NCBI GenBank assembly: GCA_947492905.1
Contig: CANLOL010000001.1
Coordinates: forward strand, 350,578 to 414,577
Length of the DNA: 64,000 bases
Reading direction: 5' to 3'
Source: an uncultured Sphingorhabdus sp.
GTDB lineage: Bacteria > Pseudomonadota > Alphaproteobacteria > Sphingomonadales > Sphingomonadaceae
How positions within the stretch are numbered: position 1 is the first letter of the stretch; every line of letters begins with the position of its first letter. The position numbers were made by a program, and so were the translations under genes. Shown one piece after another: positions 36,464 through 57,693 of this stretch. The notes under the pieces are model-generated. The model was not told the origin of the DNA and searched no databases. It worked only from the letters and a program-made list of their open reading frames with translations.

Positions 36464-36495
36464 TTTTAAAATCCGCTTACCAAAAGGAATATAAT

Positions 36496-37914
36496 ATGGC
36501 CGATAATTTTGATTATGATGTTTTGGTAATTGGTGCTGGGCCGGGCGGTTATGTTGCGGCCATTCGCGCTGCGCAATTGGGTTTGAAAACTGCATGCGTC
36601 GAGAGCCGCGAAACATTAGGCGGCACATGTTTGAACGTAGGGTGTATTCCATCAAAAGCATTATTGCATGCATCAGAATTATTTCATGAAGCATCATCGG
36701 GCGCGATGGAAAAATTTGGTATCAAGGTCAAAGGGGCTGAATTGGACCTAGAAGCCATGCATGCGGAAAAGAGCAAAGCCGTAGGCGAGCTTACTGGCGG
36801 CATTGAGTTTTTATTCAAGAAAAATAAAGTCACATGGATAAAAGGACGTGCTGGCTTTACTGGCCCGAATAGCGTCGAAGTTGCCCATGGAGACGACAGC
36901 CAAAGCGTGTCGGCCAAGGATATTATCATTGCTACAGGTTCCAGCGTTGCTCCTCTACCTGGAGTGGAAGTTGATAATGATGGCGGCATAATAGTGGACA
37001 GCACTGGCGCTCTAAATCTACCCGCAGTGCCTAAGCATTTGGTTGTAATTGGCGGCGGTGTTATTGGCCTAGAACTTGGCAGCGTTTGGGGCCGTTTGGG
37101 CGCAAAAGTGACTGTCGTTGAATATCTCGACCAAATTCTACCCGGGATGGATGGCGGCGTGCGCAAAGAAGCCGCTAAGATTTTCAAAAAACAGGGCTTT
37201 GAGATGAAAATGTCGACTAAGGTCACTGGCGTTAGCGTGAAAGGCAAAAAAGCTACAGTTTCCGTAGAACCAGCCAAAGGCGGCGACACAGAGACGATCG
37301 AAGCTGATGCTGTCCTTGTTTGTATTGGCCGGCGCCCCAACACCGATGGTCTGAACCTAGAAGCTGCTAGCCTGAAAACCAATGATCGCGGCCAAGTCGA
37401 AATGGACCACCGTATGCAAACATCTGTGCCTAGCATTTGGGCCATTGGTGATGTTGCACCGGGCCTTATGCTTGCGCACCGCGCAGAAGACGAAGGCATT
37501 GCCGTTGCAGAAAATATTGCTGGCCAAACAGGCATAGTGAACCATGACATCATTCCAGGCGTTGTTTATACGCACCCTGAAATTGCATCGGTTGGCAAAA
37601 CAGAGGAAGAGCTTAAAGAAGCAGGCATTGATTATAAGGTCGGCAAGTTTCCATTCATGGCCAATAGCCGCGCCAAAACCAATCGCGATACCGATGGTTT
37701 TGTGAAAATCTTGGCCGATGCAGAAACGGACCGCGTTCTAGGGGCGCACATCATATCGTCTTTAGCAGGCACATTGATTGCGCAAATTGCGCAAGCTATG
37801 GAATTTGGCACAACCTCCGAAGATATTGCCTATACTTGCCATGCGCATCCCACGCACAGTGAAGCTGTGAAAGAGGCTGCTATGGACGTACTCGGCAAAC
37901 CTATTCATGCCTGA
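36496..37914 (+). CDS. lpdA: Dihydrolipoyl dehydrogenase (E3)
   Basis: A 472-residue FAD-dependent E3 shared by the 2-oxo-acid dehydrogenases. The FAD loop is G-A-G-P-G-G-Y (13-19), the redox-active disulfide is C45/C50 in G-G-T-C-L-N-V-G-C, the NAD loop is G-G-G-V-I-G-L-E, and the active-site His lies in H-A-H-P-T-H-S-E near the C-terminus. It overlaps the channel gene by one base. Confidence 0.98.
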   Translation: MADNFDYDVLVIGAGPGGYVAAIRAAQLGLKTACVESRETLGGTCLNVGCIPSKALLHASELFHEASSGAMEKFGIKVKGAELDLEAMHAEKSKAVGELTGGIEFLFKKNKVTWIKGRAGFTGPNSVEVAHGDDSQSVSAKDIIIATGSSVAPLPGVEVDNDGGIIVDSTGALNLPAVPKHLVVIGGGVIGLELGSVWGRLGAKVTVVEYLDQILPGMDGGVRKEAAKIFKKQGFEMKMSTKVTGVSVKGKKATVSVEPAKGGDTETIEADAVLVCIGRRPNTDGLNLEAASLKTNDRGQVEMDHRMQTSVPSIWAIGDVAPGLMLAHRAEDEGIAVAENIAGQTGIVNHDIIPGVVYTHPEIASVGKTEEELKEAGIDYKVGKFPFMANSRAKTNRDTDGFVKILADAETDRVLGAHIISSLAGTLIAQIAQAMEFGTTSEDIAYTCHAHPTHSEAVKEAAMDVLGKPIHA

Positions 37915-42143: not shown

Positions 42144-43013
42144 ATGAGCGAATGGGTTATCGGTATTATTGGTGGATCGGGCCTATATGCTCTTGATGCT
42201 CTGGAAAATCCGCAATGGGAAAAAATTGAGTCGCCATGGGGTCAGCCTTCGGATGAATTGCTCAGCGGTACGATAGCTGGCGTAAAATGTATATTTCTGC
42301 CGCGCCATGGACGGGGCCATCATATTGGGCCAAGCCAGCTTAATTTTCGGGCGAATATAGATATATTAAAACGTGCAGGCGTCACCGATATAGTCTCTAT
42401 TTCCGCTATAGGATCATTGTGCGAAGAAATGGCTCCGGGAGATTTTATCGCAGTCGATCAATTTATTGATCGGACGTTCGCGCGCGAAAAAAGCTTTTTT
42501 GGTGAAGGCGTTGTTGCGCATGTATCAATGGCCGAACCTATTTGTCCGCGCCTATCGGATTATGCAGCAAATGCTGCGGAAAAAGCAGGCGCAAATGTTC
42601 ATCGCGGTGGCACTTATTTGGCGATGGAAGGGCCGCAATTTTCTTCTAAAGCAGAAAGCCATATGTACCGCAATTGGGGCGCGCATGTCATTGGCATGAC
42701 GGCAATGCCCGAAGCCAAATTAGCCCGCGAAGCTGAACTACCTTATGCCTTAATCGGGATGGTGACAGATTATGATTGTTGGCGCGAAAATGAAGCACAT
42801 GTTGAGGTAGAAACTATCATTGCGCAATTACAGAGCAATGCAGAAAAAGGCCGCAATATGGTCGAGCATTTGGTGCGCTCTCTGCCAGAGAAACGCGAAG
42901 CCTGTCCCATTGATACTGTGTTGGATTTTGCCCTTATCACCGATCCATCGGCCCGCAATCAAGAGCTTATCAAAAAATTGGATGCAGTGGCGGGACGCGC
43001 GCTAGGCTCTTAA
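42144..43013 (+). CDS. mtnP: S-methyl-5'-thioadenosine phosphorylase
   Basis: A 289-residue PNP-fold phosphorylase that splits 5'-methylthioadenosine into adenine and methylthioribose-1-phosphate. Motifs are G-I-I-G-G-S-G-L-Y near the start, F-L-P-R-H-G-R-G-H (phosphate site), M-E-G-P-Q-F-S-S-K-A-E-S (substrate site) and V-T-D-Y-D-C-W near 210-216. It stands 100 bases after the divergent pabB start and converges with the radical SAM gene, separated by the tandem repeat. See findings for a possible alternative substrate. Confidence 0.95.
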   Translation: MSEWVIGIIGGSGLYALDALENPQWEKIESPWGQPSDELLSGTIAGVKCIFLPRHGRGHHIGPSQLNFRANIDILKRAGVTDIVSISAIGSLCEEMAPGDFIAVDQFIDRTFAREKSFFGEGVVAHVSMAEPICPRLSDYAANAAEKAGANVHRGGTYLAMEGPQFSSKAESHMYRNWGAHVIGMTAMPEAKLAREAELPYALIGMVTDYDCWRENEAHVEVETIIAQLQSNAEKGRNMVEHLVRSLPEKREACPIDTVLDFALITDPSARNQELIKKLDAVAGRALGS

Positions 43014-43063
43014 AATCATAGGCCATGCAATGAGCTTTGTTCTGCTGTACAGCTAAAGCGCAA

Positions 43064-43172
43064 GCCCTTTTACACGGAGCAGCTTGCGCCGCCTTTTATA
43101 CCGAGCAGCTTGCGCCGGCCCTTTTATACTGAGCAGCTTGCGCCGGCCCTTTTATACTGAGCAGCTTGCGCC
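43064..43172. repeat. Four-copy tandem repeat between mtnP and the radical SAM gene
   Basis: About four tandem copies of a 26-29 base unit; in plus orientation GGCCCTTTTATACTGAGCAG then CTTGCGCC is the typical form. The rightmost copy lies inside the 3' end of the radical SAM gene and encodes its last residues and stop (43152-43154). GGCGCAAGC/GCTTGCGCC-like halves in neighbouring units can pair, giving hairpins in either transcript, so it may also terminate both convergent genes. Confidence 0.88.
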
Positions 43173-44135
43173 GCCTAGCACACAAAATCTAGCGCAATGC
43201 GGATGGTTTAATTTCACATCCTGCATCGATTCTTCCAGCGTTTCACCCATATCAAATTGCGGATCATAAGGCAGCAATGTACAGGCCGCCACGCGCGGTG
43301 TATCCTCGCCTTTGCGTTTCACCACCATGCGGCTGCTAGCGCACATTATAGTAGCAGGATCTACATCCAATATACCCCAGCATGATGTTGTAATCTCGGC
43401 AACATCGGCGCGCGCATCCATCTCTGGAAACAGCATGAGATGCGCAGGATTAGCTGCATCAAGCGGCAATAAATTATCGGTAAATAGAGCCGCATAGCCT
43501 TGCATAGCTAATGTATTGCTCTCGCCAGGCAAATGCCGACCTGCTATAGCCAATGGGAAATTATGAGCCGCTAGCCATTTCAGCCCATCTATTGCTTTAT
43601 CCCAACTATTGGGGCCACGCTCTTCTTCGTGAATGGCCTTGGTAAAATGATCGAGACTCACCCGAAAAGTAAGCTGATCGCGTTTGGGTAAATCTAATAA
43701 TTTTTGTTCAAACCTGCGCATCGGCCGCATAGCATTGGATAGCACCAATACCTTAAAATCTCTGTCCAAGCATAGCGACAATATCGCTATCATGTCAGGA
43801 TTCATAAAAGGCTCACCGCCGGTAAAGGCTATTTCCTTTATGGGCAGATTCTTTTGCGCAATTTCATCTAAATATGTGCGCACTTCTTCTAATGTTATAT
43901 AGACTAAAGCATCATTTTTGGGTGAGCTTTCAATATAACAATTTTTACAAGCCAGATTGCACAATGTGCCTGTGTTAAACCAAATCGTCTCAAACTCTGT
44001 CATCGCAACAGATGCTCTTGTCTCACCTTTGGCGGTAAAGTCTGGGTTTTGGAATTTATCGCTCTTGAGCTCTTTAAAATCACTCTCGACAAAGGGCGAT
44101 ATTGTATCAATTTCTAAATTTGTGTTTGGGGGCAT
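43152..44135 (-). CDS. Radical SAM protein with Cys-rich C-terminus
   Basis: A 327-residue radical SAM enzyme. The SAM-cluster motif C-N-L-A-C-K-N-C is at C59-C63-C66 and G-G-E-P at 106-109. Beyond the barrel the C-terminus has six more cysteines (C252, C265, C285, C314, C318, C325), suggesting an auxiliary SPASM-like Fe-S cluster. It does not show the C-Y-G-C type tail I associate with ArsS, so it is not a standard arsenosugar ArsS. It diverges from arsM across 152 bases. The final codons (G-A-S-C-S-V-stop) are one unit of the tandem repeat. Confidence 0.9.
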   Translation of the reverse strand: MPPNTNLEIDTISPFVESDFKELKSDKFQNPDFTAKGETRASVAMTEFETIWFNTGTLCNLACKNCYIESSPKNDALVYITLEEVRTYLDEIAQKNLPIKEIAFTGGEPFMNPDMIAILSLCLDRDFKVLVLSNAMRPMRRFEQKLLDLPKRDQLTFRVSLDHFTKAIHEEERGPNSWDKAIDGLKWLAAHNFPLAIAGRHLPGESNTLAMQGYAALFTDNLLPLDAANPAHLMLFPEMDARADVAEITTSCWGILDVDPATIMCASSRMVVKRKGEDTPRVAACTLLPYDPQFDMGETLEESMQDVKLNHPHCARFCVLGGASCSV

Positions 44136-44244
44136 ATATATAATTTCGTTATTTTCACTAAAAGGTTACTGGACATATATTAAGACGCTAGATTATTGTC
44201 ATGCAAATGCAATATCGTGCTGCTAGGGGGTGTAACCAATCCAG

Positions 44245-44254
44245 CGTTATAACG
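44245..44254. promoter_or_regulatory. Palindrome CGTTATAACG in the arsM / radical SAM promoter gap
   Basis: A perfect 10-base palindrome 34 bases before the arsM start; the nearby ATAACGAAA (44249-44257) has an exact inverted partner TTTCGTTAT at 44144-44152, close to the radical SAM start. The pairing suggests an operator serving both divergent genes. No regulator gene is adjacent. Confidence 0.4.
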
Positions 44255-44287
44255 AAACTTATTTATACATCTATTTAGGAAATACTG

Positions 44288-45343
44288 ATGAACCTTGAAA
44301 ATAGTCAAAATTATTATGGTGAAGTTTTGGGCGGATCTGATGATCTGCTAACCGATGCCTGCACCATGGCCGATATGCCAACATTACGTGTGCGCAAAGC
44401 ATTGGCCAATGTCCATGAAGAGGTGAAATCACGCTATTATGGTTGTGGGCTTGTTGCCCCTGCCGCTATCGAAGGGGCGCGCATATTAGACCTAGGTTCT
44501 GGTAGTGGCCAAGATGCTTATTTGCTCGCGCAATTGGTTGGTGAACATGGCAGTATTGTCGGCGTTGACGCAACCCCTGCGCAGCTTAAAGTTGCGAATG
44601 ATCATATCGAATGGCACCGCGAAAAATTTGGCTATGCCAAATCAAACGTCAGCTTTATTGAGGGCGATATTGAAAAATTAGACGAATTAGGTCTCGAAGA
44701 AGCTAGCTTTGATATTATCGTTTCCAATTGTGTCATCAATCTTGTTGCAGACAAAGGCGCTGTATTTCGCGCGGCGCAAAAATTATTGAAACCAGGCGGC
44801 GAGCTCTATTTCTCTGATGTTTATTCTGATCGACGCGTACCCGCTGAGCTTCTCGATGATCCGATTTTGCATGGCGAATGCCTTTCGGGTGCATTATATT
44901 GGGGTGACTTTATGAGCATTGCCAAGCAATCTGGCTTCGGTGATCCGCGCTTAGTTAATGATCGCCCATTGGGCATTGGTGATGATAAAATTGCCGCCAA
45001 ATTAGACGGCATTAATTTCTTCTCATCCACATATAGATTGTTCAACATTGCCGATTTAGAGCCTGAATGCGAAGATTATGGACAGGCCGTTATATATAAA
45101 GGCGGCGTGGTCGACCAAGAGCGCGTTTTCATTTTGGACAAACATCATGCGATAGAGGCTGGCCGTATATTCCCAATTTGCGGCAATAGCTGGAAGATGC
45201 TTGCCGATACACGTTTTGCCAAAAACTTCACCTTCGTAGGTGATTTTTCCAAACATTATGGCGTGTTCGACGGATGCGGCGGCGGATTGCCCTATGATAT
45301 GGATGGCGGAACAAAGGGTGCAGAACCAGCGGCTTGCTGCTGA
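44288..45343 (+). CDS. arsM: Arsenite S-adenosylmethionine methyltransferase
   Basis: A 351-residue SAM methyltransferase that turns As(III) into methylated arsenicals. The SAM loop D-L-G-S-G-S-G-Q is at 68-75. The N-terminus shows the N-Y-Y-G-E-V-L motif of ArsM, and four cysteines C25, C53, C148 (S-N-C-V-I-N-L) and C198 (G-E-C-L-S-G-A-L-Y) match the positions of C44, C72, C174 and C224 of the algal CmArsM, with 28, 95 and 50 residue spacings against 28, 102 and 50. The C-terminus ends in C-C, as in many ArsM proteins. Its stop abuts the stop of the convergent glycosyltransferase. Confidence 0.93.
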   Translation: MNLENSQNYYGEVLGGSDDLLTDACTMADMPTLRVRKALANVHEEVKSRYYGCGLVAPAAIEGARILDLGSGSGQDAYLLAQLVGEHGSIVGVDATPAQLKVANDHIEWHREKFGYAKSNVSFIEGDIEKLDELGLEEASFDIIVSNCVINLVADKGAVFRAAQKLLKPGGELYFSDVYSDRRVPAELLDDPILHGECLSGALYWGDFMSIAKQSGFGDPRLVNDRPLGIGDDKIAAKLDGINFFSSTYRLFNIADLEPECEDYGQAVIYKGGVVDQERVFILDKHHAIEAGRIFPICGNSWKMLADTRFAKNFTFVGDFSKHYGVFDGCGGGLPYDMDGGTKGAEPAACC

Positions 45344-46072
45344 TTATCTTATATCTGGATAATGATCTGCTAGACGCTCGCGCGCACCAAAAGCCCACAT
45401 AAGGCCTACTTTTAAATATATATAATTGGCCCGCCATCGTCCCCATTGGGCGATTCGGCGGTCCGATGTCCACACCCAGCGCATTAATATTTTGGTTTTT
45501 CCATAGCGCGATAATTTAATGCAAAGATCGGCCTCTTCCATCACTGCCACGCGTTCATCGCAGCCCCCTACTTCTCTGTAATGGGCTCTGCGGAAGAACA
45601 TAGCATGGTCACCATATAGCAATCGCACGCCATGCATGAAAAAGAGGCGCGGACGAAATAACATAGGCGTATACCATGTTTTTAACCAATTATGGATGCT
45701 AGAGCCCCATCGCGTGCCATTGTCTCCCGCTATGCGCGGCGTAAAACCAGCCAAGGCCAGAGTTTCATCTGTCATCGCCGATTTTATAACGGCGACACCA
45801 TCAATGGGCAGCATGGAATCGCCATGCAAGATACAAATTACATCACCACTGACGTTTTCAACACCATAATTAATTTGCGCCGCGCGGCCTCTGGTTGGGG
45901 ATGTCATTATTTTTAGTCCAGCATTTTGCGCTATAAGCAGGCTATCATCTTCGCTCTTACCATCAATCAATAATATTTCATCAGGCTGTGGGTTGAGGCG
46001 TTTTAATGCCGCAATAGAATCAGGAAGCGCCGCCGATTCGTTATAAATAGGCATGATGATAGACAGTTTCAT
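45344..46072 (-). CDS. GT2 glycosyltransferase, TIGR04283 type
   Basis: A 242-residue family-2 glycosyltransferase. The N-terminal I-I-M-P-I-Y-N-E-S is standard, G-R-A-A-Q-I-N-Y-G is the signature stretch of TIGR04283, and the metal-binding D-x-D block reads H-G-D-S-M-L-P. NCBI names this family an arsenosugar biosynthesis-associated glycosyltransferase. It overlaps the TIGR04282 gene by four bases, so the two work together. No membrane segment is strong; likely cytoplasmic or peripheral. Confidence 0.9.
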   Translation of the reverse strand: MKLSIIMPIYNESAALPDSIAALKRLNPQPDEILLIDGKSEDDSLLIAQNAGLKIMTSPTRGRAAQINYGVENVSGDVICILHGDSMLPIDGVAVIKSAMTDETLALAGFTPRIAGDNGTRWGSSIHNWLKTWYTPMLFRPRLFFMHGVRLLYGDHAMFFRRAHYREVGGCDERVAVMEEADLCIKLSRYGKTKILMRWVWTSDRRIAQWGRWRANYIYLKVGLMWAFGARERLADHYPDIR

Positions 46073-46728
46073 AATTTCACATCATCCATAGCATCGCGCA
46101 GCCAAGGCCAGCGCGCCAAATCTTCGGGCATGTCACAATCGCTCAATGGCTCTAACATTTTGACTTTTAATCCCATAGCTTCGCAGCGTTCTAATGTGGT
46201 TGGTAATACTGCATCGCTGCTCCAAGGCATATCTTTTAGCAATATATCATGGGGGCTGTTCATCCCAATCAGATAATAGCCACCATCCAGAGCAGGCCCT
46301 ATGACTATGTCATAATCCATCAGTGCGCGCATCGCTTCTTTCACATGGTTTTCACTTAAGTCTGGAGTGTCCGATCCAAAAAATATGACAGGGGCTGGTT
46401 CTAAACAGGCCAATAGCCGATCCGTCAAATCCCCCTCTGGTTGACGCTGATAATATATATCATCAATATCGATCCATTGCTCAAACTGGTCTAAGCTTCC
46501 GCCAGTATATGATATAATAGCCTGACTTTTACAATGAGCCAGAGTTTCATCACAAGAAAGCGAGGCATTATATAGAGTATTGATAGTGCGGTGCGCCAAT
46601 ATTTTGTGGATTTTAGCAGCACCGCTCTCTCCAACAGCGGGGATAAGACGCGTCTTAGCTTTGCCCGCCACGGGGTATCGCGCAAATATAATCAGGCGTA
46701 TATTTTGAGTTTCTGGCTTATCTATCAT
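46069..46728 (-). CDS. Glycosyltransferase, TIGR04282 type
   Basis: A 219-residue nucleotide-diphospho-sugar-transferase-like protein. The start F-A-R-Y-P-V-A-G-K-A-K-T-R-L is the family signature and F-G-S-D-T-P-D-L / G-P-A-L-D-G-G-Y-Y-L-I-G complete it. The ATG at 46728 is preferred; a GTG at 46737 would add three residues. NCBI lists the family as arsenosugar biosynthesis-associated, usually paired with TIGR04283 as here. It is transcribed first, with TIGR04283 overlapping its end. Confidence 0.9.
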   Translation of the reverse strand: MIDKPETQNIRLIIFARYPVAGKAKTRLIPAVGESGAAKIHKILAHRTINTLYNASLSCDETLAHCKSQAIISYTGGSLDQFEQWIDIDDIYYQRQPEGDLTDRLLACLEPAPVIFFGSDTPDLSENHVKEAMRALMDYDIVIGPALDGGYYLIGMNSPHDILLKDMPWSSDAVLPTTLERCEAMGLKVKMLEPLSDCDMPEDLARWPWLRDAMDDVKL

Positions 46729-46897
46729 AATATGCACTTAAATTATTTATCAAAAAATAATAGTATTTTTGAATATCTTATCCCTCTATTCTAAAATATA
46801 ATAAAAAAAATCACCCCCTTGTAACCATTAAAGCCTGTCTTGCGAATAGACATATGAACATTGAGTAATTGTTTTTTAGTAGACGAGGAATTAGATC

Positions 46898-47245
46898 ATG
46901 AAAATTAAAGTGATAGCAACATTAGCAGCAATTGCAGTAGCCTCTCCAGCATTAGCTTCTGGCGGCGGCGGCGGTGGCGGCGGCGGTGGTTTCAGCGGCG
47001 GCGGTTTCAGCGGCGGTTCACCACGCATTCAAATTAGCCCAGAGCAGCGTTCATTTCAACGCGGCCAAAAAATCTTCAAAAAATCTCTATCTTGTTCAAA
47101 ATGTGCATTCCCACGCGGAATTACATCAACAAAGCAAGCACAAGATGCTGTAACAAGAGTGAAAAACGGTCAAATTAAACTGAAGAAAAGACATCAAAAA
47201 GATTTACTATATTATATGTCACAACGCTATCGCGTTAAAACCTGA
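46898..47245 (+). CDS. Small secreted glycine-rich protein with a heme-less cytochrome-like region
   Basis: A 115-residue protein with a clear signal peptide (A-T-L-A-A-I-A-V-A-S-P-A-L-A, cleavage after about residue 20), a Gly/Ser-Phe linker (residues 23-45), and a C-terminal part. The C-terminal part starts R-G-Q-K-I-F and has C-S-K-C-A: a CxxC in the place of a c-type cytochrome C-x-x-C-H, but with Ala instead of the heme-ligating His, and ends D-L-L-Y-Y-M-S-Q-R-Y, like the last cytochrome helix. I infer a degenerate cytochrome fold; not confirmed. Diverges from the TIGR04282 gene. Confidence 0.75.
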   Translation: MKIKVIATLAAIAVASPALASGGGGGGGGGGFSGGGFSGGSPRIQISPEQRSFQRGQKIFKKSLSCSKCAFPRGITSTKQAQDAVTRVKNGQIKLKKRHQKDLLYYMSQRYRVKT

Positions 47246-47281
47246 TTGCTATTTTAGTATATAGACGCCAAAATATAGATC

Positions 47282-49243
47282 GTGTCTATAAATCCATATA
47301 ACATTACGGCTGCATTGGTTTCTATAACCAGTGTGGCCGTTCTTGTATTTATATCTCGATATTTGGACATATCTTTTCTCTACTATGTAGCAACTTTATC
47401 GCTCTCAACGGCATTAACCTTTGCCCTATTGCGCAAATCAAATAAGCTTAATTTTGGCTTATTTTGGGCAATCACTATTGCCATGCATGCTATGGCAATA
47501 TTTGGTGTTGCCCTATATGAGGATGATTATTTCCGATTTATCTTGGATGGCTGGCAAGTATTACAAGGCACGCCTTATGGCAAAGCGCCTGCTGAATTTT
47601 ATTCAGATCCAAATCTGCCGGGACATTTATGGCCCATATTAGACAATGTGAATAACCCCAATGTTCCGACAATTTACGGACCAACATTGCAATTTATATT
47701 TGCGGCTATTTACGCCATATTTAATATTGATCCAATCGGTTTGCGCATCGTCTTTGCGATTATCAACATAGCGTTGATTGCTATATTGACGCGCCGGTAT
47801 CCGCTGCATCAAGTCGCTCTTTATGCATGGTGCCCCTTAGTGGTGACTGAATTAATAATCCATATCCATCCTGATGGCATAATGGTTATGTTTTTGGCTG
47901 CTGGTTTATGGCTAGCCCGCAAACATCCTATATTGGCAGGTACATTATGGGGCGCAGCCGCAGGCGTCAAAATTATCGCATTGGCAGCTTGGCCATTGAT
48001 GCTGCGTTGGCCCAAAAAAGCGCTAATTTCGGCTATCGTAACATTATCAATCCTCTATGGTTATTTCGCTCTATTGGGGCCTAGCCTTGGATTCGACTCC
48101 ACCAGTACATTTGCCAATGAATGGCTCTTCAATCCAATGGGCTTTACGCTGCTTTCCATCGTAGCCCCCCAAAATATCGCACGTTTATTAGCCGCTATTA
48201 TCGGTATTATAATCATAATGTTCATTCATGCGCGGACGCGCGACAAGGATTTTCCTCCTTTGGCGGCTATTTTTGGGATTATTTTGTTTTTGGCGCCAGC
48301 GGTAAATAGCTGGTATATGATTTGGATATTGCCATTTGCTATTGGATCGCGCCAAATCTGGCCATTTGTTGCCGCCAGCTTCATTCCATTAAGCTATATA
48401 ACCGGTCTTACATTAGATACAGAAACGCTGCGCGAATTTGAGGTCCATATGGCTGCATGGAGCATCGAAGCTATCGCAATCTTGAGCGCATTACTCTATG
48501 ATCTCATTCAAACCAAACGCCATAAATTACAGGAAACTCTGCCAGCCACACCGATAGAGAATCCTAATATTGGTGTTGTAATTCCGGCGCTCAATGAGCA
48601 AGATTCGATTGGTGGGGTGGTATCCTCGCTCCGTGATTTAGATGCTTCTATCATTGTTGCTGATAATGGCTCCACCGATGAAACGGCTGATTATGCTATT
48701 GCCGCTGGCGCAAAAATTGTGACTGAGAAACAAAAAGGCTATGGCGCTGCTTGTTTAGCAGGGATTGCAGCCTTACCGGATCATGTGAATATCATTCTTT
48801 TCATTGATGCAGATGGATCCGATGTGCCCGATGAGGCCATGCATTTAATCCAGCCGATTATTGACGGCCATGCCGATATGGTTATTGGTTCACGCGCTTT
48901 AGGGAATATAGAAAATGGCGCAATGACACCGCCGCAACGTTTTGGCAATTGGCTCTCTACGCGATTGGTTAAATTGATATGGCAAAAGAATATCACCGAC
49001 CTTGGCCCATTTCGGGCGATACGGCGTGATGCACTGGAACAGCTGGCCATGGCAGATCGTGATTTTGGTTGGACGATTGAAATGCAAGTAAAGGCGATAC
49101 AGCATGAAATGCGCGTTTTGGAGCGCCCTGCCAATTATCGCAAGCGCATTGGTATATCGAAAATTTCAGGAACAATTAGCGGTGTATGGGGCGCTGGCAC
49201 CAAGATATTATATGTGATTGGGCGCGAAGCGTTTTTCCGTTAA
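47282..49243 (+). CDS. Fused GT-C membrane glycosyltransferase and GT2 glycosyltransferase
   Basis: A 653-residue fusion. Residues 1-410 have ten or more membrane segments and the acidic loop E-D-D-Y-F-R-F-I-L-D-G-W (near 80-91) typical of lipid-linked-sugar GT-C mannosyltransferases. Residues about 430-640 are a GT2 domain (V-V-I-P-A-L-N-E-Q-D-S, A-D-N-G-S-T-D, D-A-D-G-S-D) resembling polyprenyl-phosphate sugar synthases. One protein could thus make a polyprenyl-phosphate sugar and transfer it. The start is GTG at 47282. Follows the small cytochrome-like gene. Confidence 0.9.
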   Translation: MSINPYNITAALVSITSVAVLVFISRYLDISFLYYVATLSLSTALTFALLRKSNKLNFGLFWAITIAMHAMAIFGVALYEDDYFRFILDGWQVLQGTPYGKAPAEFYSDPNLPGHLWPILDNVNNPNVPTIYGPTLQFIFAAIYAIFNIDPIGLRIVFAIINIALIAILTRRYPLHQVALYAWCPLVVTELIIHIHPDGIMVMFLAAGLWLARKHPILAGTLWGAAAGVKIIALAAWPLMLRWPKKALISAIVTLSILYGYFALLGPSLGFDSTSTFANEWLFNPMGFTLLSIVAPQNIARLLAAIIGIIIIMFIHARTRDKDFPPLAAIFGIILFLAPAVNSWYMIWILPFAIGSRQIWPFVAASFIPLSYITGLTLDTETLREFEVHMAAWSIEAIAILSALLYDLIQTKRHKLQETLPATPIENPNIGVVIPALNEQDSIGGVVSSLRDLDASIIVADNGSTDETADYAIAAGAKIVTEKQKGYGAACLAGIAALPDHVNIILFIDADGSDVPDEAMHLIQPIIDGHADMVIGSRALGNIENGAMTPPQRFGNWLSTRLVKLIWQKNITDLGPFRAIRRDALEQLAMADRDFGWTIEMQVKAIQHEMRVLERPANYRKRIGISKISGTISGVWGAGTKILYVIGREAFFR

Positions 49244-49324
49244 TCCATACGCATAAGCCTTAAAAAAACTATGCTATAATAAAATATCCTTGCGCAAATA
49301 ATGGTCTAGAAACCAGCTCTGCAT

Positions 49325-49358
49325 AAGAAAACGGCCCAGCATGATAATGCCGAGCCGT
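49325..49358 (-). terminator. Rho-independent terminator after the DUF547 gene
   Basis: On the minus strand ACGGCTCGGCAT and ATGCTGGGCCGT form a 12-bp stem with two G-U pairs and a four-base loop (49331-49358), then TTTTCTTAT. It lies 27 bases after the stop of the DUF547 gene; it may also serve the convergent fusion gene. Confidence 0.8.
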
Positions 49359-49384
49359 TCAATATATTATAAATGTCTGAGTTA

Positions 49385-50326
49385 TTATGCCGATCTGCGG
49401 CGTTTCACCAAACGCCATCCGCCATATAATAGGCCCAATAATATCAAAATACCGATGCCAAATGGTATAGGATATGCGCTAGCAATCCAAAGCGGAGAAA
49501 TGCCGCCGCTTACTTCGCCTTCCGGAATTGTGACATCATTGAGACGCCAATCATATTCGCTAAATTCAATATCATATTCACCCGCAGCAAGCGCTTCGCT
49601 CTGATCTGCATCAAGGCCTAGACTATCGCCATAAAGCGCCAAAAATTCACCAAGATCAATTGCATCACGCCATCCTGCTTCAAAGTCACCGCCATACCAC
49701 TCAAAGATTTGAGAAACGGTAACGACTTCGCCATTGACAAAGTTGCGAGTGCGATCAGTTAGAAAATCTTGCGTTGCTTTTTCGAGCTGCGCGTCCACTT
49801 TCTCGCCCGTAAAGGCTTCGTTGATTAACGGCGGGCAGCCAATGCTGGCGCAATTAACGCCAAAGTGGATGCGCGGTTCGTTATAACGGCCACTGCCACG
49901 GATCATATCATGCTCAATATTGTCAAGCGATACATTTTGACCCAATAATGGCACAAATTCTTTTTTCCAAGGTGAACTTGTAACCGTACCCAATTCTTTG
50001 ATCGAATTAAGATCAGGATATTTAGTAAGGATTAATTCAACCGTAAATGCATTATAAGCATTCATAAGAAATGCTAATTGTTCATCAGAAGACCATGCAT
50101 CAAATGTTGCTTGGTCTACAGCTGATAATTGATCCAAATAGGCTTTGAGCTGCTCTTGCTTCGTTTGCACATTGGCATAATCAAAGCTTGTTGCTCCAGG
50201 GCCGATGATTTTAACATTTTCTTTGACAATATCATCCCATGCTTGGTGGTCAAAACTTTGGGCCATAGCGGGTGATGAAATACCTGCCATCAAAGCTATC
50301 ATAATTGGTGCTGTATATTTTAACAT
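49385..50326 (-). CDS. DUF547 secreted protein with C-terminal membrane anchor
   Basis: A 313-residue protein with an N-terminal signal peptide (about residues 1-22, ending A-M-A-Q-S), a DUF547 domain carrying N-A-Y-N-A-F-T-V, and the C-A-S-I-G-C-P-P motif near residues 161-168, and a C-terminal hydrophobic helix (about 282-304) followed by K-R-R-R. It is therefore exported and retained in the membrane. DUF547 genes are often found near TIGR04282/TIGR04283 loci. The terminal anchor plus basic tail looks like a sorting tail; no known sorting motif is seen. Confidence 0.9.
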   Translation of the reverse strand: MLKYTAPIMIALMAGISSPAMAQSFDHQAWDDIVKENVKIIGPGATSFDYANVQTKQEQLKAYLDQLSAVDQATFDAWSSDEQLAFLMNAYNAFTVELILTKYPDLNSIKELGTVTSSPWKKEFVPLLGQNVSLDNIEHDMIRGSGRYNEPRIHFGVNCASIGCPPLINEAFTGEKVDAQLEKATQDFLTDRTRNFVNGEVVTVSQIFEWYGGDFEAGWRDAIDLGEFLALYGDSLGLDADQSEALAAGEYDIEFSEYDWRLNDVTIPEGEVSGGISPLWIASAYPIPFGIGILILLGLLYGGWRLVKRRRSA

Positions 50327-50439
50327 GATTTATCCTCTATCAATGGCAGCAAAAAGCTGCTGTCTTGACCATAGGTTCGCATATATAATGGCCAAAGTTA
50401 CATAGGCGCATTAGTATATCATAAGATAAGGATTGCTGC

Positions 50440-51117
50440 ATGGAATATAATGCTAATTTTTCAGAACGGGTATTGGTGCGGTTCAATGGCGGTAATTGGC
50501 AAGCATCACCAATGGCCGGCGTTGATCGGCATATGTTGGATCGCATAGGCGATGAAGTTGCGCGCGCGACCACTATTGTACGCTATGCTAAAGGGAGCAA
50601 TTTTTCCGAACATACGCATGACGGCGGCGAAGAATTTATTGTGCTGGATGGTATATTCCAAGATGAGCATGGTGATTATCCAGCAGGTTCTTACATCCGA
50701 AACCCGCCTACTTCGCACCATATCCCAAGGTCTGATGAAGGGTGCACCATATTTGTTAAATTATGGCAATTTGATCCTGATGATCGCACGCAAGTGAAAA
50801 TCGACATGAGCAAAATGCAGAGCATCTCAGCGGCCAATCGCAAAGGCGTATCTATCATGCCCTTATTCCAAGATGCATGTGAAACCGTACAAATGGAAGT
50901 TTGGGATGCGGATAGCGAAATAACAATCGACCTGCCACATGGCGGTGAATTTCTTGTCCTCGACGGTAGCTTTACCGAGGGCAATGACATAATCACGCGC
51001 CATGATTGGTTGCGCATTCCTATGGGTGGTGCATTTCATGCGAAGGCTGGTCAGGATGGTGCAAAAGTCTGGATAAAAACAGGCCATCTACGCTATGTTA
51101 AAGCTATAGATATCTGA
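50440..51117 (+). CDS. ChrR-like double cupin protein
   Basis: A 225-residue cytoplasmic protein of two cupin units. The first has the metal motif E-H-T-H-D-G-G-E-E-F (H58, H60, E64) followed by V-L-D-G; the second has P-H-G-G-E-F-L-V-L-D-G with a poorer metal site. It lacks the N-terminal zinc domain of ChrR that binds a sigma factor, so it is not an anti-sigma factor but may sense redox or bind a small molecule. Divergent from the DUF547 gene by 113 bases. Confidence 0.87.
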   Translation: MEYNANFSERVLVRFNGGNWQASPMAGVDRHMLDRIGDEVARATTIVRYAKGSNFSEHTHDGGEEFIVLDGIFQDEHGDYPAGSYIRNPPTSHHIPRSDEGCTIFVKLWQFDPDDRTQVKIDMSKMQSISAANRKGVSIMPLFQDACETVQMEVWDADSEITIDLPHGGEFLVLDGSFTEGNDIITRHDWLRIPMGGAFHAKAGQDGAKVWIKTGHLRYVKAIDI

Positions 51118-51243: not shown

Positions 51244-52401
51244 ATGATCGCTACTCCCAATTTCGATTTCCAGCTTGGCGAAATGGCCGACCAAATCCGC
51301 GATACGGTGCGCCGCTTTGCCGATGAGAAAATTGAGCCATTGGCTGCAAAAATCGACCGCGATGATTGGTTCGCGCGCGAGCTATGGCCGCAAATGGGCG
51401 AATTGGGATTGCATGGAATCACGGTCGAAGAAAAAGATGGCGGACTAGGCCTCGGCTATTTGGAACATGCTATTGCCGTCGAAGAAGTCAGCCGCGCCAG
51501 CGCTTCCATCGGCCTAAGCTATGGCGCGCACAGTAACCTTTGCGTCAATCAAATCCGCCGTTGGGCAACCCCAGAGCAAAAAGCAAAATATCTGCCCAAG
51601 CTGATTTCAGGCGAGCATGTCGGCAGCCTTGCCATGAGCGAAGTTAGCGCAGGATCAGATGTGGTTTCGATGAAATTAAAAGCCCAAGAAATATCTGGTG
51701 GATATGTTTTGAACGGCAGTAAATTTTGGATCACCAACGCACCCTATGCGGATACATTGGTTGTTTATGCCAAAACGGGCGAAGGCTCTGGCGGGATAAC
51801 CGCATTCCTTATCGAAAAAGATATGAAGGGTTTTTCCATCGGGCAAAAAATCGACAAAGTCGGTATGCGCGGATCACCCACGGCTGAATTGGTGTTTCAA
51901 GATTGTGAAGTTCCCGCCGAAAATATCATGGGGCCGCTTAACGGCGGGGTTGGCGTATTGATGAGCGGCCTAGATTATGAGCGCGCCGTGCTGGCCGCGA
52001 TACCGCTTGGCCTTATGCAGGCATGCCTTGATACGGTTATCCCTTATGTGCGAGAGCGCACCCAATTTGGCAAACCGATTGGCACATTCCAGCTGATGCA
52101 AGGCAAAATCGCCGACATGTATGTGCGCCTGAATAGCGCGCGCAGCTATGTCTATAATGTCAATCGATCATGCGATAATGAACAAACCACCCGCTTTGAT
52201 GCAGCCGGTGCTATCATGTACGCATCAGAGAGCAGCGTGCGCGTGGCCGAAGAGAGCATCCAAGCTTTAGGCGGCGCGGGATATACCACCGATTGGCCTG
52301 TGGAGCGCTATTGGCGAGACAGTAAACTCCTTGATATTGGCGCAGGAACAAATGAAATTCGCCGTATGCTGATTGGCCGCGAATTAATTGGGGGTCAATA
52401 A
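51244..52401 (+). CDS. ivd: Isovaleryl-CoA dehydrogenase
   Basis: A 385-residue FAD acyl-CoA dehydrogenase that oxidises isovaleryl-CoA to 3-methylcrotonyl-CoA in leucine breakdown. The catalytic Glu is E246 in D-Y-E-R-A-V, the position typical of isovaleryl-CoA rather than medium-chain enzymes; L-S-Y-G-A-H-S-N, M-S-E-V-S-A-G-S-D and G-A-G-T-N-E-I-R are present. First gene of the leucine operon, overlapping DUF1330 by one base. Confidence 0.96.
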   Translation: MIATPNFDFQLGEMADQIRDTVRRFADEKIEPLAAKIDRDDWFARELWPQMGELGLHGITVEEKDGGLGLGYLEHAIAVEEVSRASASIGLSYGAHSNLCVNQIRRWATPEQKAKYLPKLISGEHVGSLAMSEVSAGSDVVSMKLKAQEISGGYVLNGSKFWITNAPYADTLVVYAKTGEGSGGITAFLIEKDMKGFSIGQKIDKVGMRGSPTAELVFQDCEVPAENIMGPLNGGVGVLMSGLDYERAVLAAIPLGLMQACLDTVIPYVRERTQFGKPIGTFQLMQGKIADMYVRLNSARSYVYNVNRSCDNEQTTRFDAAGAIMYASESSVRVAEESIQALGGAGYTTDWPVERYWRDSKLLDIGAGTNEIRRMLIGRELIGGQ

Positions 52402-52694
52402 TGAGTGTATATATTATAGCGCGTTTCAAAATCCACGACCGCGCGGCCTATGATCGCTATGAAGAAGGCTTTGGCCCTATATTTGAGAAATATGACGGCA
52501 AAATGCTGAGCGTTGATGAAGACCCTAAAGTCTTACAAGGCGATTGGGATCATAGCCGCAGCGTGCTGATCGAATTTCCCGATAAAGCCGCCGCCTATGC
52601 ATGGATGACTTCGCCTGAATATCAAGAAATCGCCAAAGATCGCTTAGCAGGAAGCACGGGCGATTCCATCATGGTGGAGGGCTTTGAAGGATGA
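52401..52694 (+). CDS. DUF1330 domain protein
   Basis: A 97-residue dimeric alpha/beta-barrel protein of the DUF1330 family (Y-I-I-A-R-F-K-I-H-D near the start, L-I-E-F-P-D, W-M-T-S-P-E-Y-Q). Such small ferredoxin-like proteins occur with catabolic genes; their role is unknown. It overlaps ivd by one base and the next gene by four. Confidence 0.88.
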   Translation: MSVYIIARFKIHDRAAYDRYEEGFGPIFEKYDGKMLSVDEDPKVLQGDWDHSRSVLIEFPDKAAAYAWMTSPEYQEIAKDRLAGSTGDSIMVEGFEG

Positions 52695-53041
52695 CACTAT
52701 ATTATATCGCCGCAGGTTTAATCGTCTTTTTAGCTATTTTCCATTCATGGGGAGGAGAAGACAAATTGATCAAACCAACGCTAGCCGTTGATGATGAATT
52801 TATCAAACTTCCTATGACGCAGGCCATCACTCGTTTTGGTTGGCATTCAACCAGCCTCTTCATGCTGTTCACCGCTTTTTCGCTGATTCATCCCGATGTT
52901 CCGGAATTTATGAAACTCATGGTAGGCGCTGTATGGCTCTTATTGGGTATCACCAATCTTATCATGACCAAAGCAAAACATCCCGGAGGGCCTTTACTCT
53001 CCATCATCGGCGTACTGAGTATTTTAGGATATATTTTATGA
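52691..53041 (+). CDS. Small membrane protein, 116 residues
   Basis: A 116-residue protein with three to four membrane helices (start helix, [16 protein letters not shown] and the C-terminal L-S-I-I-G-V-L). Short hydrophilic parts include H-S-W-G-G-E-D. No family recognised. It overlaps the genes on both sides by four bases, so it belongs to the operon, possibly as a transport or anchor protein. Confidence 0.8.
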
Positions 53042-54639
53042 GCGCACCTATTTTACCGACCAATATTGATCTGCAATCCGATGGTGCAACGGCCAACGCC
53101 GCGCATAATAAATCCCTGCGCGATGAGCTCTGGGCCAAAGTCGCGCAAGCTGCCAAAGGCGGCCCAGAAAAATCGCGCGAACGCCATGTTGGGCGGGGCA
53201 AATTATTACCGCGAGAGCGTGTTGAGCGACTGCTTGACCCCGGATCACCCTTTCTTGAGGTTGGTCAACTTGCTGCCAATGGCCTCTATGGTGATGATAT
53301 AGCGGGCGCTGGCATTATTGCTGGTATTGGCCGCGTATCGGGCCGCCAAATCATGATCGTCTGTAATGATGCTACCGTTAAAGGCGGCACATATTACCCG
53401 ATGACAGTGAAAAAACATCTGCGCGCCCAAGAAATCGCCCTACAAAATCATCTGCCCTGCATTTATTTGGTCGATAGCGGCGGCGCCAACCTGCCGCACC
53501 AAGATGAGGTTTTTCCCGACCGCGATCATTTTGGGCGGATATTCTATAACCAAGCCAATATGAGCGCCCAAGGAATCGCGCAAATCGCATGCGTCATGGG
53601 CAGCTGTACCGCTGGCGGGGCTTATGTTCCCGCTATGTCGGATGAAACGGTTATTGTGCGTAATCAAGGCACGATCTTTCTCGCAGGGCCGCCCCTCGTA
53701 AAGGCTGCAACAGGCGAAGAAATTAGCGCCGAAGATTTGGGCGGCGGTGATATGCATGGCAAAAAATCTGGCGTGGTCGATCATGTGGCCGAGAATGACG
53801 AACATGCGCTGACCATTGTCCGCGATATTGTCTCGCATCTTGGACCAACCCATCATCCTGAAATCGACATAGGCGAACCAAAGCCGCCAAAATATGATGC
53901 CGATGAATTATATAATATCATCCCGCAAGATGTGCGCGCGCCTTATGATGTGCATGAAGTGATTGCGCGTATAGTCGATGGCAGCGAGTTTCATGAATTT
54001 AAGGCCAAATATGGCAGCACGCTTGTATGTGGTTTCGCGCATATTTGGGGTATGCCCGTCGCGATATTGGCCAATAATGGCGTGCTATTTTCTGAAAGCG
54101 CGCAAAAGGGCGCTCATTTCATTCAGCTAGCCTGTCAGCGCAAAATACCATTGCTATTTTTGCAAAATATATCGGGCTTCATGGTCGGCGGAAAATATGA
54201 ACAAGAGGGCATAGCCAAACATGGAGCTAAGCTAGTGACTGCCGTTGCCACCGCCAGCGTTCCCAAAATCACTGTGCTCATCGGCGGCAGCTTTGGCGCG
54301 GGTAATTATGGCATGTGCGGGCGTGCCTATGCGCCCAATTTCCTATTCAGTTGGCCCAATAGCCGCATTTCGGTGATGGGCGGCGAACAAGCTGCATCTG
54401 TGCTGGCCACGGTGCACCGCGATGCTAGCAGTTGGAGCGAGGAAGAGGCGGAGAATTTCAAAGCGCCGATCCGCCAAAAATATGAAGATGAGGGCAATCC
54501 TTATTATGCCACCGCGCGGCTCTGGGATGATGGGATAATTGATCCAGCGCAAACGCGCGATGTGCTGGGATTAGCCTTTGCCGCTGCCTTAAACGCTCCA
54601 ATGCAGGAGGCACCTAAGTTTGGCGTGTTTAGAATGTGA
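53038..54639 (+). CDS. mccB: Methylcrotonyl-CoA carboxylase beta (carboxyltransferase) subunit
   Basis: A 533-residue carboxyltransferase subunit. The correct start is ATG at 53038, which overlaps the previous stop (ATGA); a longer reading frame from 52840 is only an out-of-frame extension through the membrane gene. Acyl-CoA and carboxybiotin motifs are visible: [25 protein letters not shown] and G-G-S-F-G-A-G-N. It carries out carboxylation of 3-methylcrotonyl-CoA together with the biotin subunit McaA/MccA, three genes downstream. Confidence 0.96.
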
Positions 54640-55148
54640 CTGCAGTCACTCAAAAAAGTGACGAGCCAAAAGGTATAGGTGGATGGTTAGCTTTCTTAAT
54701 AACCATCTTAATCATTATATCTCCAGTGCACTTGGCATGGTCAACTTACAGAGAAATGCCTGAATTAATTGAAGGTGATCCAGAATTGATCTCAGATCCA
54801 GAGTTAGCACTATATGTGAAAATATTTATATGGTTTGTGACATTCATTCTGTCATTAGTAAGCATTATCACAGGAATAATTTTATTGAAAATGCGCAAAC
54901 CAAAAGCTGTTAAAATTGCTATAGCATCACTTTGGTTAGTAGGGCCAATATTCGCATTGCCCATTTTGATATACGCTTATATGGAAAACCCTAATTCGAT
55001 TTACTCATCAGAATATTCTGAATATTCAAGAGGTATTCTGATAGCTATTCTATGGACTGCTTATTTAATGATGTCCAAACGTGTGAAAAATACATATGGA
55101 TTTAGAGTAAAAGTTCCAAAGAAACATAATAACGGTACACCAAAATGA
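54636..55148 (+). CDS. DUF2569-type membrane protein inserted in the operon
   Basis: A 170-residue protein with four membrane helices; the [11 protein letters not shown] start fits DUF2569. The start is GTG at 54636, overlapping the mccB stop, without a near ribosome site. Codon use is clearly unlike its neighbours (ATA, AGA, TTA codons, AT-rich), and the usual mccB-mccA spacing is broken by this gene and the next. I infer acquisition by transfer, but overlaps at both ends show it is now coupled. Confidence 0.8.
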
Positions 55149-55762
55149 AGCCCCCCGCATCCGTTAAGGCATTGGAAGAATTTGGCAGAGTGCGTCTGTC
55201 CAAGACATTTTTCATGCGGGATTTTTTATTCTCTGACATTGCGGCCATATATGGATTATCCAATGTGCCGACAGATCCTGAATTGGCCATAAAAGCGGGC
55301 AGCAAATTATGTGAAACATTGCTCGAACCGCTGCAAGATCGCTTTGGCCGTATTGCAATACGATCATCCTATCGGTCACCAACCGTCAATCAATTTGGCA
55401 ATGAAAAAGGTTTAAATTGCGCATCTAACGCCGCCAATGCAGCCACGCATATTTGGGATGAGCGCGATAAAGATGGCCATATGGGAGCTTGTGCTTGCAT
55501 CGTCATCCCAGCATTTTGGGATATATTCCAATCAGAAGGCGATTGGCAAAAATTAGCATGGTGGATTCACGATCATCTCCCCTATTCAGAGATGTATTTT
55601 TTCCCAAAAACATTTGCGTTTAATTTAACATGGAATGAAAAACCAAAACGCAGAATCGATAGCTATGTGGCGCCCAGAGGGTGTTTAACCAAAAACGATA
55701 TGCCCAATAATGACGGTTCACATGAACCCGAATGGCGCGGAATAGAAAAGGCCTTTATATGA
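55145..55762 (+). CDS. Peptidase M15-like protein of unknown function
   Basis: A 205-residue protein. It contains R-S-S-Y-R-S-P-T-V-N near residue 75, the start of M15 (D-Ala-D-Ala carboxypeptidase/endolysin) domains, and a later W-x-I-H-D-H segment near residue 140 that could supply a His ligand, but the full H-x-x-x-x-x-x-D and H-x-H set is not clear, so activity is uncertain. No signal peptide. ATGA overlaps at both ends tie it to DUF2569 and mccA. Confidence 0.75.
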   Translation: MKPPASVKALEEFGRVRLSKTFFMRDFLFSDIAAIYGLSNVPTDPELAIKAGSKLCETLLEPLQDRFGRIAIRSSYRSPTVNQFGNEKGLNCASNAANAATHIWDERDKDGHMGACACIVIPAFWDIFQSEGDWQKLAWWIHDHLPYSEMYFFPKTFAFNLTWNEKPKRRIDSYVAPRGCLTKNDMPNNDGSHEPEWRGIEKAFI

Positions 55763-57693
55763 TTAAATCGCTTCTTATTGCCAATCGCGGAGAAATTGCC
55801 TGCCGTATCATCCGCACTGCTCGCGCCATGGGCATTCGCACTATCGCCGTTTATAGCGATGCCGATAGCAAAGCGCTGCATGTGCGCCAAGCCGATGAAG
55901 CAATCCATATCGGGCTATCACCTGCAAATGAGAGTTATTTGGTCGGTGCAAAGATTATTGCGGCCGCCAAAGAAAGCGGAGCAGAGGCCATTCACCCCGG
56001 CTATGGATTTTTATCGGAAAATGCAGATTTCGCACAATCCGTCATCGATGCGGGTCTGATTTGGGTCGGACCAAAACCGCACAGCATCCGCGCTATGGGC
56101 CTGAAAGACGCTGCCAAAATATTGATGCAAGAGGCGGGTGTTCCCGTCACACCCGGTTATATTGGCGATAATCAAGAGCCGCAATATTTGGCTAAGCAAG
56201 CCGATGAAATTGGCTATCCCGTGTTGATTAAGGCGATTGCGGGCGGCGGCGGCAAAGGTATGCGTAAAGTGGATAATCCAGCCGATTTTGCCGATAGTTT
56301 GACGTCATGCCAGCGCGAAGCCAAGGCCAGTTTTGGCAATGATATTGTGCTGATCGAAAAATGGATCGAAAGCCCGCGTCATATCGAGGTGCAAATCTTT
56401 GGCGATAGCCATGGCAATGTGGTGCATTTGTTTGAGCGCGATTGTAGCTTGCAACGTCGCCACCAAAAAGTGATCGAAGAAGCCCCCGCCCCAGGTATGG
56501 ATGAGGCCACGCGCGAGGCGGTGTGCGGAGCAGCGGTGCGCGCAGCCCAAGCTGTGGACTATGAAGGGGCTGGTACAGTCGAATTTATCGCCGATGGCAG
56601 CGATGGTCTGAAAGCGGATAAAATATGGTTCATGGAAATGAATACGCGGCTTCAGGTGGAGCACCCGGTCACCGAGGAAATCACGAGCGTTGATTTGGTC
56701 GAATGGCAATTGCGCGTGGCATCGGGAGAGGAAATTCCGCTGCGCCAAGACGAGTTATCTATCAACGGCCATGCCATTGAAGCACGCCTCTATGCCGAAG
56801 ATCCAGCAAATGGTTTCCTACCGAGTACAGGTATGCTTGATGAGTTTTGGATAGCCAAAAGTAATCGGCGTGATGGAGAAAACAGAATCGATACAGGTGT
56901 CGAAAAAAGCTCGGAGATATCTCCATATTATGACCCGATGATTGCAAAACTCATAGTTAAACGGAATAATCGTGCTTCCGCCGCCAAAGCACTCGCGCAA
57001 AAGCTAGGACACAGTTATTGCTGGCCAGTAAAATGGAATTCAAAATTTTTGAGAAATTTGGTTCAACATGCAGAGTTTTTATTAGGTAATATTGATACAG
57101 GGTTTATCGAAAAGTATAAAGAAGATGTCATACCTTCTAATGAACCAACATCAGAATTGCTCCAAGCTGCTGCTACATTATTTGCGGCGCGTGCTTCTGG
57201 AATAGCTGTGATAGACAATCTAGATGATACAGTTGAAGATTGGATAGAACAGTCATCAAGCGGTTTTAGACTTAATTCTGAGCGCAAAAAACCCTTGGTA
57301 AAGCTAGATCATGAAGGCGTTACATATACGGTTGAGCTTGAGGGAACATCTATATGGGATTTACCAAACGCAAAATTCGTTGACGGCGGTATTTTCGCAC
57401 ACGATCATGCAGGTCGCTCAGGTTTCTTTATTGAATATAAAGCAAATAAAGAAGCAGCAGGCACAGCATCAGACGGCGCTATCCTATCCCCCATGCCCGG
57501 CAAGATAATCGCAGTGGACATATCCGAAGGCGATAGCGTGACCAAGGGGCAGAAACTCCTCACTTTAGAAGCGATGAAAATGGAACATAGCTTGACCGCG
57601 CCGTTCGATGGAATTGTCTCATCTTTGAACGCTGCGCTCGATGCGCAGGTGCAGGTTGATGCATTGCTTGCCCAAATTGACGCAGAGGCGTAA
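55759..57693 (+). CDS. mccA: Biotin-containing acyl-CoA carboxylase alpha subunit (methylcrotonyl-type)
   Basis: A 644-residue biotin subunit that carboxylates biotin and carries it to MccB. Domains: biotin carboxylase (1-450; A-N-R-G-E-I-A-C, the G-G-G-G-K-G-M-R ATP loop near 165, M-N-T-R-L-Q-V-E-H), BT linker, and biotinyl domain with E-A-M-K-M-E-H, biotin-lysine K607. ATG at 55759 overlaps the previous stop. The middle part (nt 56815-57470, residues ~353-570) is markedly more AT-rich with AGA/ATA codons, unlike both ends, yet the I-S-P-Y-Y-D-P-M-I-A-K motif is intact. May be a local recombination mosaic. Confidence 0.95.
   Translation: MIKSLLIANRGEIACRIIRTARAMGIRTIAVYSDADSKALHVRQADEAIHIGLSPANESYLVGAKIIAAAKESGAEAIHPGYGFLSENADFAQSVIDAGLIWVGPKPHSIRAMGLKDAAKILMQEAGVPVTPGYIGDNQEPQYLAKQADEIGYPVLIKAIAGGGGKGMRKVDNPADFADSLTSCQREAKASFGNDIVLIEKWIESPRHIEVQIFGDSHGNVVHLFERDCSLQRRHQKVIEEAPAPGMDEATREAVCGAAVRAAQAVDYEGAGTVEFIADGSDGLKADKIWFMEMNTRLQVEHPVTEEITSVDLVEWQLRVASGEEIPLRQDELSINGHAIEARLYAEDPANGFLPSTGMLDEFWIAKSNRRDGENRIDTGVEKSSEISPYYDPMIAKLIVKRNNRASAAKALAQKLGHSYCWPVKWNSKFLRNLVQHAEFLLGNIDTGFIEKYKEDVIPSNEPTSELLQAAATLFAARASGIAVIDNLDDTVEDWIEQSSSGFRLNSERKKPLVKLDHEGVTYTVELEGTSIWDLPNAKFVDGGIFAHDHAGRSGFFIEYKANKEAAGTASDGAILSPMPGKIIAVDISEGDSVTKGQKLLTLEAMKMEHSLTAPFDGIVSSLNAALDAQVQVDALLAQIDAEA

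Follow-up and report, generated by a model that had tools for sequence, protein, structure and literature searches.

A stretch of DNA of 64,000 nucleotides from an uncultured Sphingorhabdus sp. (GCA_947492905.1, contig CANLOL010000001.1, positions 350,578 to 414,577; hereafter the window) contains, at positions 42144 to 50326, a locus that probably encodes a pathway to organoarsenicals of the arsenosugar type, with a radical S-adenosylmethionine (SAM) protein of SPASM/twitch type, distantly related to ArsS and here called rSAM, in the place of ArsS. The simplest reading is that one radical SAM enzyme was exchanged for another within an otherwise similar gene set. Sequence comparisons give good support to the view that in Sphingomonadales the rSAM takes the position of ArsS, because canonical ArsS is absent from this order, 48 of the 49 genomes with an arsenite methyltransferase ArsM of the window type also have the rSAM, and the same partners flank canonical ArsS elsewhere. 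This reading builds on observed gene identities, catalytic cysteines, conserved neighbourhoods, the absence of ArsS from the order and genome-wide co-occurrence. The open reading frames (ORFs) lie where the initial annotation of the window had placed them, and the locus consists of:

42144 to 43013, plus strand: S-methyl-5'-thioadenosine phosphorylase (MTAP, mtnP), PRK08931 at 462.2 bits against a cut-off of 437
43152 to 44135, minus strand: rSAM protein of 327 aa, PF04055 at 73 bits
44136 to 44287: intergenic region of 152 bp between the divergent rSAM and arsM genes
44288 to 45343, plus strand: ArsM, As(III) S-adenosylmethionine methyltransferase of 351 aa, with CrArsM and CmArsM structure matches
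45344 to 46072, minus strand: TIGR04283-family GT2 glycosyltransferase, full-length match at 161.1 bits; PF00535
46069 to 46737, minus strand: TIGR04282 protein (DUF2064, CofC-like nucleotidyltransferase fold), 170.9 bits against a cut-off of 134
46898 to 47245, plus strand: small Gly-rich protein, probably secreted, kept upstream of the fusion gene in the two nearest relatives (L035 and L036)
47282 to 49243, plus strand: membrane protein with a fused GT2 domain that resembles polyprenyl-phosphate glycosyltransferases, PF00535 at residues 432-588; AglJ-like at 131 bits
49385 to 50326, minus strand: DUF547 protein, PF04784 at 92.8 bits

ArsM, TIGR04282 and TIGR04283 genes thus stand beside a radical SAM gene, as in the ArsS-type arsenosugar locus. 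The initial annotation had described an arsenosugar-type locus with a radical SAM gene divergent from arsM, and this description was borne out, as canonical ArsS of other classes is surrounded by these partner genes too. The MTAP gene, which had been overlooked, is probably the most informative neighbour of the rSAM gene; the two are arranged tail-to-tail, and it was the sole MTAP found in its own genome (2.59 Mb). The family assignments made earlier stood for TIGR04282, DUF547 and the cupin. TIGR04283 matched over its full length but stayed below the cut-off (161.1 against 182 bits). In the proposed GT-C/GT2 fusion the GT2 domain was recovered, but the N-terminal membrane half had no Pfam match and may be called GT-C by homology of architecture only. 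The ChrR-like cupin gene (plus strand), which follows the DUF547 gene in the ORF reading of the window, does encode a Cupin_7 protein, but it was rejected as part of the locus since it is not conserved with the locus in relatives. The small Gly-rich protein had no family match in NCBIfam/Pfam-type profile scans.

The rSAM fits no named NCBIfam family. Its best-scoring model, that of the Rv1681 (MoeX) family (NF049973), gave 93 bits against a cut-off of 380 and matched the core only, and the ArsS model TIGR04167 gave 61.2 bits against a cut-off of 300 and matched residues 45-190 alone, in agreement with the earlier view that this enzyme does not look like ArsS. The protein carries CX3CX2C at Cys59, Cys63 and Cys66, and further cysteines at positions 265, 285, 314, 318 and 325. 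CX3CX2C was found in 188 of 188 homologues and the internal cysteine pair in 187, and the C-terminal motif was CX3CX6C in 177 of them and CX2CX6C in 11. Canonical ArsS has a comparable cysteine layout with a C-terminal CX2CX7C (27 of 30 sequences), whereas this ArsS-type auxiliary-cluster motif was not found in the rSAM, with 188 homologues checked. An AlphaFold2 model (mean pLDDT 87.6) had BlsE, SkfB and SuiB as its top Foldseek matches, which suggests a SPASM/twitch-type fold. The homologues split into clade A, which includes the window protein and carries CNLACxxCYIESSP, and clade B, a deep second clade at 34-39% identity that carries CNLACxFCLEGSKPGDT. One rSAM, encoded with zwf and pgi in a record named Enemella evansiae (Actinomycetota; L124), grouped inside Rhodobacteraceae/Roseobacteraceae in the tree, a placement that may reflect either transfer or contamination of the record.

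Almost the entire window ArsM aligned with CrArsM (5evj, E 1.5e-101) and with CmArsM (E 4e-77). The four cysteines that had been equated with those of CmArsM do align: Cys25, Cys53, Cys148 and Cys198 correspond to C44, C72, C174 and C224 of CmArsM (4kw7/4fr0), and their spacing differs in length only by an insertion of 7 residues that separates the third further from the second. Of 41 homologues, 40-41 retain these four catalytic residues, and the same holds for Cys298, Cys330 and the CC that ends the Cys-rich C-terminus. The curated NCBIfam ArsM models all scored below their cut-offs (NF008823, 151 against 263 bits; NF038099, 82.6 against 400; NF040538, 119.6 against 500), and the window protein is therefore a divergent bacterial ArsM. 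ArsM-like frames interrupted by a single stop codon, mostly TGA, were also seen in alphaproteobacteria (G392:C75:16268-16837, G492:C88:32865-33449, G578:C24:13564-14214, G584:C79:112434-113018 and G494), and these may possibly encode selenoprotein forms of ArsM.

Among 301 Sphingomonadales genomes, the rSAM was present in 84, ArsM in 49 and both in 48 (Fisher P = 2e-31; this and the other co-occurrence P values are inflated by shared ancestry). The sole genome with ArsM and no rSAM was a 69%-complete metagenome-assembled genome, and same-genus relatives tended to miss both genes together. Canonical ArsS (TIGR04167) was found in none of the 301 genomes; a draw of 140 Pseudomonadota genomes gave 69 with ArsS, and no alphaproteobacterial genome was among the matches listed.

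Gene-context comparisons further showed that the rSAM belongs to a recurrent set of genes. In clade-A loci of Sphingomonadaceae and Erythrobacteraceae, both of which are represented among the sampled relatives, the order is [MTAP], rSAM, flavin adenine dinucleotide (FAD) oxidoreductase, ArsM, short-chain dehydrogenase/reductase (SDR), TIGR04283, TIGR04282 and [sterol desaturase family], and the order from MTAP to TIGR04282 is common to several genera. Clade-B loci hold ArsM, TIGR04282, TIGR04283, FAD oxidoreductase and TVP38 genes. Several of them have MTAP and the rSAM gene in the same orientation with 5-9 bp between the two; others hold DUF547 together with unfused GT2 and membrane genes, so that the two parts of the window fusion are separate neighbours there (L053, L054, L057, L061, L149 and L153). 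MTAP adjoins the rSAM gene in 19 of 192 rSAM loci.

The same partners accompany canonical ArsS, which is reported to adenosylate arsenic (PMC12159101). A plasmid of Acinetobacter portensis carries ArsS, TVP38/FAD oxidoreductase, DUF547, TIGR04283, TIGR04282, ArsM, a phosphate transporter, mtnP and a sterol desaturase in this order, with an ArsM 55% identical to that of the window. In Burkholderia glumae plasmids (for example bglu_2p), TIGR04282, TIGR04283 and MTAP are direct neighbours, with ArsS and DUF547 close by, and at two chromosomal ArsS loci (L269 and L275) MTAP adjoins ArsS. The DUF547 gene likewise recurs in both ArsS and rSAM arsenosugar-type loci. FAD oxidoreductase/TVP38 genes are shared by the A. 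portensis set and the window's relatives, whereas the window itself has none adjacent; a candidate FAD oxidoreductase at 36457-37911 was excluded as a locus gene, as it reads as dihydrolipoamide dehydrogenase. The A. portensis set (L285) resides on pJNE5-X3_NDM-1, a plasmid typed as mobilizable, and the pathway can therefore be plasmid-borne. An rSAM match on a Marinobacter plasmid had no arsenosugar-type annotation in its surroundings.

From these genes we infer the following chemistry. ArsM would methylate arsenite to dimethylarsenite, and the rSAM would transfer the 5'-deoxyadenosyl group of SAM to the arsenic of the methylarsenical, which is the ArsS reaction. MTAP, which acts on 5'-substituted 5'-deoxyadenosines and has the adenine-site motif TDYDCW, could then remove adenine from the adenosyl-arsenical by phosphorolysis to give 5-arseno-ribose-1-phosphate. 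The CofC-like TIGR04282 protein, which has DUF2064 and CofC matches (3cgx, E 1.9e-15), would convert this to a nucleoside diphosphate-activated arsenosugar, and the TIGR04283 transferase, if inverting like most GT2 enzymes, would form a beta-riboside by passing the arsenoribosyl group to glycerol or to a lipid-linked acceptor. An MTAP-class enzyme would yield alpha-ribose-1-phosphate, from which nucleotidyl transfer by a CofC-like enzyme and inversion by a GT2 enzyme would lead to a beta-riboside, as in arsenosugars. Since MTAP is single-copy it would be dual-purpose, serving both S-methyl-5'-thioadenosine (MTA) and the adenosyl-arsenical, and its adjacency at rSAM and ArsS loci supports, though it does not prove, such a dual role. 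The order of steps parallels adenosylhopane synthesis, in which adenosylation by the radical SAM enzyme HpnH is followed by adenine removal by the phosphorylase HpnG (PMC12583986). The analogy is one of logic, a nucleoside-phosphorylase-family protein following a radical SAM adenosylation; the radical SAM family, the phosphorylase family and the substrate all differ. The initial annotation had raised the possibility of a variant arsenical, to which the substituted enzyme lends no direct support, since two unlike enzymes can arrive at one product.

Several observations weigh against this explanation of the locus. Among 289 alphaproteobacteria, the rSAM was found in 83 genomes and window-type ArsM in 6, all six rSAM-positive, and any ArsM-like match was present in just 24 of 79 rSAM-positive genomes. 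TIGR04282 occurred in 106 of the 289, including 79 of the 83 with the rSAM (P = 6e-42); by family, the two went together in 48 of 50 (P = 3e-25, with the total of families approximated at 158), so the pairing spans about 48 families despite shared ancestry. The tight genome-wide partner of the rSAM is TIGR04282, not ArsM. As the rSAM is found in many alphaproteobacteria without detectable ArsM, it is not ArsM-dependent, and the co-occurrence that had been proposed as a check holds in Sphingomonadales but not as a dependence. Many sphingomonads keep the rSAM, FAD oxidoreductase, SDR, TIGR04283 and TIGR04282 without ArsM, and the clade-A loci of many Qipengyuania-like genomes are of this type. 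Profile comparison of the rSAM with ArsS covered only the generic radical SAM core (residues 45-225, 98% probability), and other radical SAM models scored as well or better. The single-copy MTAP must also serve methionine salvage, and its adjacency may reflect clearance of 5'-deoxyadenosine or MTA only. TIGR04282 and TIGR04283 owe their arsenosugar names, as we understand them, to association, and we know of no arsenic product or phenotype for the locus. The strongest of these arguments against a purely arsenosugar reading is the ArsM-free majority: because most alphaproteobacteria with the rSAM are without ArsM, either the pathway can run without an ArsM of its own or it uses something other than a methylated arsenical. 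Methylated arsenic may be scavenged, arsenite itself may be the substrate, or the trio of rSAM, TIGR04283 and TIGR04282 may have another substrate altogether. We tentatively put forward, as a possible wider account, that the rSAM, which is unrelated to ArsS at family level, forms with TIGR04283 and TIGR04282 a widespread alphaproteobacterial pathway without need of its own ArsM, which would place a deoxyadenosyl group on inorganic or environmental methylated arsenic or on another acceptor, with phosphorolysis and nucleotidyl activation then leading to a glycoside.

If the trio is instead an old alphaproteobacterial pathway for a ribose- or nucleoside-derived glycoside of a non-arsenic or non-methylated acceptor, ArsM would have been recruited to its side in Sphingomonadales and, beyond these, in just a few others. 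The far tighter pairing of the rSAM with TIGR04282 than with ArsM-like genes fits this account, as do the ArsM-less genomes, where TIGR04283-TIGR04282 stays in conserved housekeeping surroundings and the rSAM lies beside apaG/folE or zwf/pgi. We nevertheless regard it as rather doubtful, given that the same pair and accessory genes go with canonical ArsS and ArsM elsewhere, that nearly every Sphingomonadales genome with window-type ArsM has the rSAM, and that ArsM-less strains could take methylarsenicals from their surroundings. It is very unlikely that the rSAM follows an ArsL-like route to an arsinothricin-type product. The arsQML cluster of Burkholderia gladioli also pairs ArsM with a non-ArsS radical SAM gene (PMC8552651), and MTAP adjacency would fit a release of MTA; however, ArsL is reported to have 428 aa and three conserved cysteines only (PMC8552651), whereas the window rSAM is shorter and its extra cysteines are conserved in 188 of 188 homologues. 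In addition, no ArsQ-like gene was found among the locus genes examined, MTAP also accompanies the adenosylating ArsS, and such a product would leave the glycosyltransferase-type partners TIGR04282 and TIGR04283 without a role. There is only a slight chance that ArsM serves arsenite detoxification on its own and is an incidental neighbour of the rSAM and glycosyltransferase genes. Two points were counted in favour of this: the neighbouring ORFs read included none recognised as arsR or as a gene for efflux or a reductase, and ArsM and the rSAM are far apart in two genomes (G066 and G207). The co-occurrence far above chance, the gene order common to several genera and the tendency of same-genus relatives to miss both genes together all stand against it.

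An ArsM-independent alphaproteobacterial pathway, if true, would represent a second origin of arsenosugar-type chemistry, with the post-adenosylation steps assigned. The open papers found describe these steps in general terms only ('adenosyl nucleosidase', 'glycosidation'), and a search found none that names both 'arsenosugar' and 'methylthioadenosine phosphorylase'. Three different radical SAM groups share a conserved link with MTAP, TIGR04282 and TIGR04283, which offers named candidates for these steps. These results also indicate that ArsS-based surveys of organoarsenical producers would miss alphaproteobacteria, which are abundant in the sea, and that in ArsM-less genomes 'arsenosugar' may be a wrong or an incomplete label for TIGR04282 and TIGR04283.

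The intergenic region between the rSAM and arsM genes showed little conservation and no convincing shared operator in a comparison of three relatives, and sigma-70-like matches in this divergent promoter region were weak and not above shuffled expectation. Downstream of the locus and unrelated to it, the genes at 51244-57693 read as a cluster for leucine degradation, with an acyl-CoA dehydrogenase and the subunits of a carboxyltransferase and a biotin carboxylase. TIGR04282 was also present in 27 alphaproteobacteria without an rSAM of the window type (for example G327, G401 and G434). In ArsM-less alphaproteobacteria (L236-L254), TIGR04283-TIGR04282 lies among conserved genes that read as MoaB-, RnhB- and MutY-like and PA0069-like radical SAM genes, a housekeeping setting that suggests vertical inheritance. 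A second radical SAM protein of 459-465 aa adjoins DUF547 on a Roseomonas plasmid (L288, 7592-8971) and on the B. glumae ArsS plasmid (L290, 11072-12469); on the former it also lies next to a clade-A rSAM and a PhnD/PhnE-type ABC transporter, and it is a possible further enzyme of the pathway.

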